Shown: piece after piece, positions 57,342-63,339 of the stretch
Layout of the letters: each line of letters opens with the position of its first letter
Position numbering within the stretch: position 1 is the stretch's first letter
Origin: Chitinophagaceae bacterium IBVUCB2
GTDB taxonomy: Bacteria > Bacteroidota > Bacteroidia > Chitinophagales > Chitinophagaceae
Direction of reading: 5' to 3'
DNA length: 64,000 bases
Assembly: GCA_002127295.1 (NCBI GenBank)
Contig: NFUV01000002.1
Span: forward strand, 930,001-994,000
Made by a program: the position numbers and the translations under genes
Notes under the pieces: model-generated
What the model was told of the DNA's origin: nothing
Seen by the model: the letters and a program-made list of their open reading frames with translations, nothing else
Database searches by the model: none

Positions 57342-57965
57342 ATGGAAAAGAATATTGCAATACTAATGGCTGACCTGTCCGGGTACACAGCCCTAACAGA
57401 AACACACGGCGCCTTAGCAGCAGCCGATCTGATTGACAAGTATATTAGTATAGTTGAGAAATGCCTGATCGGCGATACATTTCTGCATGAACGGACGGGT
57501 GATGAGCTGATGCTGGTCTCCTCTTCGCCTGATTTTCTATTGGCTACTGCTGTTATGATAGGAAAGCAAACTTCAAAAGAAGATAAATTTCTCCGGGTGC
57601 ATGGAGGATTGCATTATGGTAAAGTATTACAAAGAGGGAACAGTTATTTTGGATCGGCCCTCAATCTAACATCCAGGATTGCTTCCAAAGCAACTGCAGG
57701 AAGCGTTTGGTGTTCTGATGAATTTGTCAATGCGTTGTCTGATAGATCTGTATTTCCTTTGATATCAAAGGGAAACCAGGTTTTTAAAAACGTCAGTATT
57801 GAAAAGCAAGTATTTGAGTTGCGCATTGAAAATCGAGAATCAGTTTACGTTGATCCGGTGTGCAGAATGTTAATACTGGATACCAACAAAGCCATTTCGC
57901 ATCCTACGGAGGAGGGTAAATATTTTTGTTGTACGGAATGCATTGGACTTTATAGTTCTATTTAA
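57342..57965 (+). CDS. Class III nucleotidyl cyclase domain fused to a YHS-like domain
   Basis: The product has 207 residues. Residues 1-165 are a class III cyclase homology domain. The metal-binding aspartates are Asp11 (MADLSGYT) and Asp54 (RTGDE), and the transition-state pair is Asn108/Arg112 (NLTSR). The usual substrate-selecting lysine before TGD is Arg here, so the activity and nucleotide are uncertain. Residues 169-207 resemble a YHS domain (VDPVCRM, then YFCCTEC), with Cys174, Cys196, Cys197 and Cys200 as possible metal ligands. Fusion suggests metal or redox control of a cyclic-nucleotide signal. It is soluble. Confidence 0.85.
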   Translation: MEKNIAILMADLSGYTALTETHGALAAADLIDKYISIVEKCLIGDTFLHERTGDELMLVSSSPDFLLATAVMIGKQTSKEDKFLRVHGGLHYGKVLQRGNSYFGSALNLTSRIASKATAGSVWCSDEFVNALSDRSVFPLISKGNQVFKNVSIEKQVFELRIENRESVYVDPVCRMLILDTNKAISHPTEEGKYFCCTECIGLYSSI

Positions 57966-59869: not shown

Positions 59870-61350
59870 TTACATATGATTACTAGCTAAAGTAGCTGCT
59901 ATATCTTTATTTAGAGAAAAAGTAGCTTTGAGTTCGTAACCATCTCCTGGTTTTGAAATGATCCTTACTTTCCCATGAAAAAGTTCTACACGACTTTTTA
60001 TATTAATGATTCCAACTCCTTTTTTTCATTCGACATATCACAACCCTTTCCATTGTCATTTATTACTAATAACATTTCATTATCCTGCCTGGTCAGCTTG
60101 ATAATAGCAATGGAAGCTTCTGAATGCTTAAGAATATTATTTATTTGTTCCTGAACAATCCGGAAAATATTGATTTGCAATTGTTCGGGAATTTTTTCCT
60201 CTTCAAGGCCGGGCTCATAAAAAATAATTTTTATTGGATGAACAGCCATTACATCTGTAATTAAAATTCTGATATTTTGTATTAAGCCGAAAATATCAGA
60301 GGGAGGGATTATTAGGTTTTTTGACATTTTTCTGATCACTTCTATTACTTCCTGAATAAAATCCAATGATTTTACAATATGGGCATCTTTATTTTCTTTA
60401 GAGGTCTTAGCCATTTGCATATACATTTTGGCCACCACTAAAATCTGGCCCAGATTGTCATGAATTTCCATCCCTATCGCAGACCGTTCATTTTCTAAAG
60501 AGGTTAAGACCGCACTGGTTATTTCCCGATGTTGTTCCATTTTTTGGTTCGACATATCTTGTTCCAGCATTACTCTTTCATCGATATCCTGCGTCGCTCC
60601 AATGATGCGGGTAGGTTTATAATTTTCATCCCGAAGGATATGCCCCCTGTCATGTACATAGCAAAAGCTTCCATCCATCCGTTTAAAACGGTATTCATCT
60701 TCCCATATTTCCAATTCGGTATCTTTAATAGTCGTATTTAGTTTTGTCAGTACCCTTTCTCTATCATCGGGATGTAGGCAGCTTCTCCAAAAATTTACCG
60801 GGATTAATTTATTTTCGATAGGATAGCCAAAAGCTCTTTTATGACCACCATCTATCCAAAATATTTCATTGGTTCCCCAATCCCATTCCCATAATGCGTC
60901 ATTAGTAATTTCTGTTACGTATTTGTAAAGCTCAGTAAGAGTATTAAGACGGTCCATTATCTTAACCGAATCTTCAGTGTACGGTGCAGAACTACTTTTA
61001 AAGGACACACACAGATTATCATCCACACACCAGGTAGTTACATCAAACCATGCGTTCATTTCGCCCCAGTATTCCTGAAATTGAATGGGAATATCCTTCA
61101 GAAAGGCTTTATTATATACTGCATAAAATTCTATCGGTATCCTTTGCGCAAATTCCTTCCAAAGGTTCTTCCCGAGAATATTAATTTTCGTAATTCCTAA
61201 TAATTTTTCTGCCGACTCATTCCAGTATTTTACTACCCAATTTTCATCTACAATAAAATAACCGTTAGTCAGCGTCTCAATGACTGGCTTACCCTGGTAG
61301 GTATTTTTTTTAAATGATCTTTTTGATGATATGATGGGTTCCGCAGACAT
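59870..61350 (-). CDS. PAS-domain sensor histidine kinase, frame broken at an A_AAA_AAG slippery site
   Basis: Frame zero (59998-61350) gives 450 residues: PAS 1 (about 22-115), PAS 2 with PAC (about 140-265, ending GATQDID), a HisKA_3-like helix with the phospho-histidine in GMEIHDNLGQ, and the ATPase N box (EQINNILKH) and D box (NDNGKG). It then stops in ELESLI, without the G2 box. A -1 shift at A_AAA_AAG (60025-60019) restores KGVGIINIKSRVELFHGK and 49 more codons to the stop at 59870, total 493. The gene is downstream of a cupin gene by 10 bp. A missing base in the A7 run is the simplest explanation. Confidence 0.85.
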
Positions 61351-61360
61351 ACAGTAGCGT

Positions 61361-61720
61361 TTAATCTATATTGTTTTTAATGGTAGTCAGTATCATTTTA
61401 AAACGTCCGTTTGGTTTGATAAAGTTGGATGCATGGGCCGGTATCACAATACCTTGACCCGTTGTAAGAATGGTTGCTACTTTATCAATAACAATTTCTG
61501 CTTTTCCCTCAATGATCTGAGCGAAAGTATCAAATGGAGATCTTTTTTCTGTTAAACCTTCTCCTGCATCAAAAGACAAGACACTGATATTTCCAGTTGT
61601 TTTTTTGATAATAGTTTTTATGACAACTGCATTAGTCATATACTCTATAATTTCAACTATTATATGTGCTTTGGCTTTTTCAAGTTCTGTGTTATTTTTT
61701 ATTTCATCTGATAGTGTCAT
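61361..61720 (-). CDS. Cupin-domain protein paired with a histidine kinase
   Basis: The product has 119 residues and is a paralogue of the cupin at 4912-5319. It has a single cupin fold (IEGKAEIVIDKVATILTTGQG, then IVIPAHASNF). It lies 10 bp upstream of the PAS histidine kinase and shares its transcript, so it might sense a ligand for the kinase or be part of its output; neither is shown. Metal-ligand histidines of the usual cupin motif are mostly missing. Confidence 0.78.
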   Translation of the reverse strand: MTLSDEIKNNTELEKAKAHIIVEIIEYMTNAVVIKTIIKKTTGNISVLSFDAGEGLTEKRSPFDTFAQIIEGKAEIVIDKVATILTTGQGIVIPAHASNFIKPNGRFKMILTTIKNNID

Positions 61721-62190: not shown

Positions 62191-63339
62191 ATGAATACTA
62201 AGGAAAAGCAACTAACGCTGAAAAAAAGCGGTAAGCCTAATTTTATGACACTTACTGATATTTTCAGCAAAAATTCTATCCTTAAAAGATATTATTTCAA
62301 AACGCTGGCTGTTATTGGAATTATATGGACATTCTTTGACTATTCAAGATTTCTTACTCTTTCTTTCACCGAAAAAACTGAGCAATATCCCTATACAGAA
62401 CCAGGGCAAAGTCTTTTCATTCTCCGTTTAGTCCTGGGGCTTATTGCTTACTCTGCAATGGCCTATATGCTGATCTTCCCGTTGAAGAACAGATTTAGAA
62501 AATATCCACTCTGGCTTAGCTTTATTTTCAAAACATTAATTCTATGTGTTCTCACTGCATTGTTTGCAATCATTAATTTTTATATCATTTATATTTTTGT
62601 ATACTCCATTAACCCTATTGCGGCTACCCGAACCTTGTACTATTATGCCATACAAACTCCATGGCTGTTGAATTATGTCGAATCAAGGCTACTATTATAT
62701 ATTATTACCTTATTAATACTGGAGATCAATGAAAAGTATTCACCCGGAGTGTTCACTGATATTTTTATTGGAAAATATTTAAAGCCGAAAGAAGAAAAAA
62801 GAATCATTCTTTTCATTGATTTAAAAGATTCGACACCCACTGCAGAGAAATTAGGCCATAAAAAATACTTCTTTTATATCCGTGACTTTATTCATCATAT
62901 TTCTCTTGCTTTACTTGAATACGATGGATTGATCTATCAATATGTTGGAGATGAAATTGTAGTATCCTGGTTATCTACTGCTGGAAATAAAAATAAATGT
63001 ATACAATCTGTTATAAGAGCTCGTCGTATTATACAGAGAGAAAGTAACTATTACCGGCGGGAGTATGGCATTGTACCTGAATATCGAATTGGTGTGCACC
63101 TGGGTATGGTGATGGTTGGAGAAATCGGCATCGTTAAAAAAGATCTCACCATGAGCGGCGATGCGATGAATACTACCGCACGGATCAGAACAATGACCGG
63201 GGAACTGAATCAAAAGTTTATAGGTTCAGCAGATTTTGTAAAAAATGCCGGTTTAGAAGCCTGGCAGGTGGAGAGCCTTGGGAGTATCGACTTAAAAGGA
63301 AAAGAATTACCTATGGAATTGTTTGCCATAAAAATATAA
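62191..63339 (+). CDS. Membrane-bound class III nucleotidyl cyclase
   Basis: The product has 382 residues. Residues 35-180 contain four or five membrane helices; the cyclase homology domain is at about 203-380. Both metal-binding aspartates (Asp210 in FIDLKDST, Asp254 in YVGDE) and the Asn327/Arg331 pair (AMNTTAR) are present, so it is probably active. The site that usually carries the adenine-selecting lysine has another residue. It lies 5 kb from the cyclase-YHS gene; together with the histidine kinase and AraC regulator this is a signalling neighbourhood. Confidence 0.88.
   Translation: MNTKEKQLTLKKSGKPNFMTLTDIFSKNSILKRYYFKTLAVIGIIWTFFDYSRFLTLSFTEKTEQYPYTEPGQSLFILRLVLGLIAYSAMAYMLIFPLKNRFRKYPLWLSFIFKTLILCVLTALFAIINFYIIYIFVYSINPIAATRTLYYYAIQTPWLLNYVESRLLLYIITLLILEINEKYSPGVFTDIFIGKYLKPKEEKRIILFIDLKDSTPTAEKLGHKKYFFYIRDFIHHISLALLEYDGLIYQYVGDEIVVSWLSTAGNKNKCIQSVIRARRIIQRESNYYRREYGIVPEYRIGVHLGMVMVGEIGIVKKDLTMSGDAMNTTARIRTMTGELNQKFIGSADFVKNAGLEAWQVESLGSIDLKGKELPMELFAIKI

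Follow-up and report, generated by a model that had tools for sequence, protein, structure and literature searches.

The sensor histidine kinase gene in the 64,000-nucleotide stretch of DNA analysed here (the window) is interrupted by a frame break at a run of seven A residues, and all 12 distinct orthologues examined are continuous. We propose that the product is a full-length sensor histidine kinase of the ordinary PAS and HisKA_3 kind and that the deposited sequence is short by a net one base in or next to the A-run, most likely because the consensus is wrong at this homopolymer. In the cell, the gene would then probably form one frame and give rise to one protein of about 493 residues. On balance, we think it slightly more likely than not that the gene is intact in the cell and the consensus at fault, and we favour this by a small margin over a recent slipped-strand mutation in the sequenced strain. 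The features on which the argument draws are the following.

59998..61350, minus strand: zero-frame open reading frame of the sensor histidine kinase, 450 aa, with PAS regions, HisKA_3 and the N-terminal half of HATPase_c
60020..60026, minus strand: run of seven A residues (A7) at the frame break, followed by GG; the codon model switches frame at 60022, at a penalty of -6 only
60019..60025, minus strand: A_AAA_AAG heptamer, in the zero-frame register, on Lys-Lys codons
59870..60025, minus strand: tail in the -1 frame, reading KKGVGIINIKSRVELFHGK...HM and holding the G2 box, 51 aa plus stop, undecayed
61361..61720, minus strand: 119-aa gene upstream of the kinase, adjoining it in 7 of the 12 distinct orthologous loci

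The sequence agrees with the first-pass annotation in that the frame breaks at the A7 run, the A_AAA_AAG at 60025-60019 lies in the register GAA AAA AAG, and the C-terminus and the G2 box (GVGIINI) are carried only by the -1 frame, the G1 box being in the zero frame. The zero-frame codons at the break are GAA AAA AAG GAG TTG. Entered at 60025, the -1 frame is open to a TAA at 59872-59870, and the kinase read through the break has 442 + 51 residues, which gives the 493 that had been predicted upon slipping. The zero frame was also said to end six codons past the D box; that holds for the break, which lies about six codons past DNGKGCD, but the stop comes six codons later (ELESLI). Read through, the protein has what defines a HisKA_3 sensor kinase, an H box and a HATPase_c domain with G1 and G2. 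The match to PF07730 (HisKA_3) has an E-value of 1.4e-6 and exceeds the family cut-off, while HATPase_c is partial, each half scoring below the curated cut-off of 26.4 bits (zero-frame half, profile positions 4-53 of 111, E 0.0011, 19.8 bits; tail half, positions 73-109, E 0.11, 13.4 bits). Under a codon model for which 724 kb of the same genome served as training data, the tail scores +6.6 nats when read in the -1 frame, compared with -43.6 and -26.1 in the remaining frames. At a frameshift penalty of -6 the model switches at 60022, within the A7 run, although this is a loose setting at which the kinase is one of 183 junctions, and at -9 or stricter the kinase break is not called because the tail is short.

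We found 12 distinct orthologues at 13 loci, 46-57% identical to the kinase, and each is one open frame of 478-532 codons from stop to stop that extends beyond the G2 region. Seven loci covering the site (L039-L045) came from 394 family genomes drawn from a larger group, in a search that scored at most four candidates per genome, the orthologue total being possibly incomplete for that reason. Five more (L178-L181 and L184) all came from one of three additional genus searches, the other two of which gave no further orthologue. The remaining locus, L038, from a named Bacteroidetes MAG, was the single match from a wider search of genome contigs and carries the same kinase DNA as L041; the pair was counted once. 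No close orthologue was found within the genus of the organism itself, the best-scoring match in 41 other genomes being 36% identical, and the viral contigs searched gave no match to the kinase. We left out L046, in which the frame is continuous and the C-terminal kinase domain is different, together with matches to the PAS regions only or with less than about 45% identity (most rows of the family search and L047, L182, L183, L048 and L049).

At seven of the 12 loci the kinase lies beside a homologue of the 119-aa gene (53-77% identical), and as far as gene order can tell this neighbour supports orthology at those seven; at L044, L178, L179, L180 and L184 there was no match to it at an E-value of 1e-5 in the upstream flank examined. 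The 119-aa gene, which looks cupin-like to us, has no Pfam or NCBIfam match at an E-value of 0.001, and its recurrence beside the kinase suggests a two-gene unit. The kinase also lies between two genes with adenylate/guanylate cyclase domains, both on the plus strand (57342-57965 and 62191-63339) and about 4 kb apart.

Neither the split nor the A-run is conserved among the orthologues. None of the 12 is split, and in the 10 that were measured the A-runs near the site (the longest within about 30 nt) have lengths of 3, 3, 4, 4, 4, 4, 5, 6, 7 and 7, L179 and L184 both having been missed by the G2 pattern. The first-pass annotation had linked a continuous frame in relatives to eight A residues at this point. 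No such run is present in any of the 10, in which the longest is seven, but the single frame itself is intact in the relatives, which code similar residues by other codons. Two of them do so with a seven-A stretch and an intact zero frame, L041 with GAA AAA AAG GGG and L042 with GTA AAA AAA GGG. The tail, measured over the first 37 residues past the break, is 49-70% identical to the orthologues, compared with 46-56% for the body, and its identity exceeds that of the body in 11 of the 12 comparisons, the exception being L181. We saw no second frame lesion in the tail. Since the tail is undecayed, the break would be either recent or absent from the cell.

The other kinases of the same genome point in the same direction. 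There are 18 HisKA_3 matches including the kinase under study, one of the others being below the family cut-off, and in the 17 others the stop lies 192-206 codons past the beginning of the match (the H box). In the kinase under study the distance is 163 codons in the zero frame and 206 when read through. The G2 pattern is present in 12 of the 17 and a variant of it was recognized by eye in four, while L200 is atypical-looking and lacks a G1 match. A DNA search with 451 bases returned the broken end itself and a 36-base match, and hence no second copy in the genome. With these lengths and 12 of 12 continuous orthologues, the one-base indel that the first-pass annotation had taken as its default class is supported.

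The frame break is notable and the heptamer is not, as in-register A_AAA_AAG is frequent in this genome: 363 long ORFs hold 65 copies, including that in the kinase, which is slightly fewer than the 76 that codon context predicts. Loss of one base from a Lys-Lys A-run before a G leaves A_AAA_AAG, and therefore finding a heptamer where the frame breaks adds no independent evidence and the coincidence of the two carries no weight. In the history that we propose for this gene, an A-run in Lys-Lys codons before a G, once shortened by one base, would have left the heptamer in register. A separate observation concerns in-register A_AAA_AAA, of which the long ORFs of the 33 sampled stretches and the window hold 185 copies compared with 254 expected, a deficit with the same direction in the four genus relatives sampled.

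A consensus error could be one of many in the assembly or a lone event, and we scanned 724 kb, made up of 33 stretches and the window, for frame switches. Plain counts of switches were 11, 42 and 72 at penalties of -14, -11 and -9, and by eye most of these switches coincide with gene boundaries. At -12, 14 of 96 junctions had an A/T run of at least six in the open-frame overlap, and all of these switch within eight bases of the upstream stop; this rule recovers 167 of 200 simulated one-base deletions but 3 of 9 when the tail is shorter than 200 bases. An earlier filter, which detected 17 of 120 simulated breaks, passed none of the 96 junctions, and a second filter, which detected 98 of 200, passed 15, the farthest of which (L127) lies 31 bases from the upstream stop. 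Because the switch is at the upstream stop, we judged the flagged 14 and 15 junctions to be adjacent genes, a call made from switch position and not from homology. At -9, where 181 of 200 simulated breaks are detected, 20 of 114 junctions were flagged and L131 alone switches well ahead of the stop, by 82 bases; at -6, 28 of 183 were flagged and the kinase is among the 28. An indel-ridden assembly was not seen in the 724-kb scan. A/T runs of exactly seven number 687 in the 724 kb (949 per Mb) versus 555-815 per Mb in four genus relatives, and the ratio of eight- to seven-base runs is 0.26, compared with 0.21-0.37 in the same relatives.

Given that the sample is not riddled with breaks, we hold a single error of the consensus and a single recent mutation to be almost equally likely, with the former slightly favoured. 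The break is found in a single genome, a class in which, according to the excerpted text of Antonov et al. (2013; PMC3711429), BLASTp-validated frame breaks are expected to be sequencing errors and not genuine indels. We infer that the base was lost from the consensus rather than from the strain.

A strong competitor is that the sequenced strain itself recently acquired a real slipped-strand mutation at the A-run, and to this we assign somewhat less than an even chance. To judge from the reading frames, the kinase would then be truncated ahead of the G2 box and probably inactive, maybe as a reversible phase-off state or a young pseudogene. A-runs are sites of replication slippage, the sampled assembly is without a clear excess of homopolymer breaks, and the break is close to the 3' end, a position at which breaks lean to real indels in the excerpts of the same study (PMC3711429). 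There is also a precedent in the FlgS kinase of Campylobacter jejuni, for which phase-variable loss via A/T tracts is described in the part of PMC7677240 consulted, citing Hendrixson (2006, 2008). However, the frame break occurs in a single genome, and the mutation must be recent to account for a tail free of a second frame lesion. Furthermore, seven-base A/T runs are common (687 in 724 kb), so that nothing marks this one as a dedicated switch, and the A-run is unconserved in the orthologues. A phase-variable tract is expected to be kept in homologues or to be unusually long, and the A7 of the kinase is neither.

It is also conceivable, but in our view improbable, that the A7 is real in cells and that the kinase is near off, with a trace of full-length enzyme made by slippage at A_AAA_AAG with tRNA-Lys(UUU) and heritable restoration when the tract slips back. 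We found one tRNA-Lys, with the anticodon UUU, among 37 tRNA matches (150 of 239 first-look candidates were scored), and this lone tRNA-Lys(UUU) is compatible with, and would permit, slippage at the heptamer. If this scheme were true, a short A-tract would be a contingency switch on a histidine kinase beyond the known pathogen examples.

The other option raised by the first-pass annotation, programmed frameshifting that yields both a short and a full-length kinase, is not supported, and we regard it as very improbable, whether the slip at A_AAA_AAG is a -1 shift of the ribosome or is made by the polymerase. A heptamer of the form X_XXY_YYZ is indeed in register at the junction, the only tRNA-Lys found is the UUU species, and the tail keeps its coding constraint. 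Against this, all 12 distinct orthologues are without need of a shift, two of them with A7 and an intact zero frame, no other split copy was found, and the A-run is unconserved. The RNA fold of the 80 nt downstream is no better than that of shuffled sequences (z = 0.55, pseudoknots lying outside the fold model), nor is the fold across the site (z = -0.35). No SD-like motif of the kind described in PMC4066793 was recognized by eye at the spacing given in the excerpts of that paper. According to the same excerpts, when stimulators are lacking, shifting in E. coli amounts to about 0.3% for the three best V_VVA_AAG heptamers, and up to 3.7% in the best context. The heptamer is, moreover, common in long ORFs (65 seen, 76 expected). 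The orthologues, the missing structure and the heptamer background together led us to reject programmed frameshifting, and a literature search on histidine kinases with ribosomal or programmed frameshifting returned no report of a recoded histidine kinase.

The dnaX gene of the same genome (L204; N-terminal match at G000:C2:149423-150487, minus strand) makes a stronger candidate for recoding than the kinase does. It contains a nine-A run past the conserved N-terminal part, after which the +1 frame meets a stop immediately and the -1 frame meets one two codons on. In this the gene is similar to the poly-A dnaX sites in Thermus and Chlorobium relatives that are mentioned in excerpts of PMC3711429.

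That the truncated 450-residue form is itself functional, for example as a kinase-dead partner or a phosphatase, is scarcely credible. The zero frame does retain the H box, the PAS regions and the first half of the ATPase domain, but all 12 orthologues continue beyond that point, and an open -1 tail, if long unused, would be decaying.

The reading that we prefer, that of an intact gene with a one-base consensus error, can be set against three known systems. The -1 frameshift site of E. coli dnaX is A_AAA_AAG, and its decoding relies on a lone tRNA-Lys with the anticodon UUU. The kinase has the same heptamer in register, and a single tRNA-Lys(UUU) gene was found in its genome. Unlike in E. coli dnaX, however, no stimulatory structure was found at the kinase site and the split is unconserved, and a shift would complete a protein that the orthologues encode in one frame rather than provide an extra product as in dnaX. 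The case shows that a frame break may itself generate the slippery heptamer found at it, and in annotation the gene is best handled as a histidine kinase that is probably intact but contains a suspect base, and not as a recoded gene.

The kinase also resembles the singleton frameshifted genes of the GeneTack survey, in which, as excerpts of PMC3711429 describe, the break is in one genome and the homologues elsewhere are in a single frame; these are ascribed there to sequencing error or a recent indel. We found no feature that distinguishes the kinase from the singletons, its own break being at A7 near the 3' end. The third system is flgS of C. jejuni, in which, as in the kinase, the gain or loss of a base within a short A/T tract truncates a histidine kinase (PMC7677240, in the part consulted). 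It differs in that the tract of the kinase is unconserved among orthologues and the kinase is known here from one genome sequence. Should the A7 prove to be both real and variable, the kinase would join C. jejuni flgS as another case of a histidine kinase that is switched by a short A-tract.
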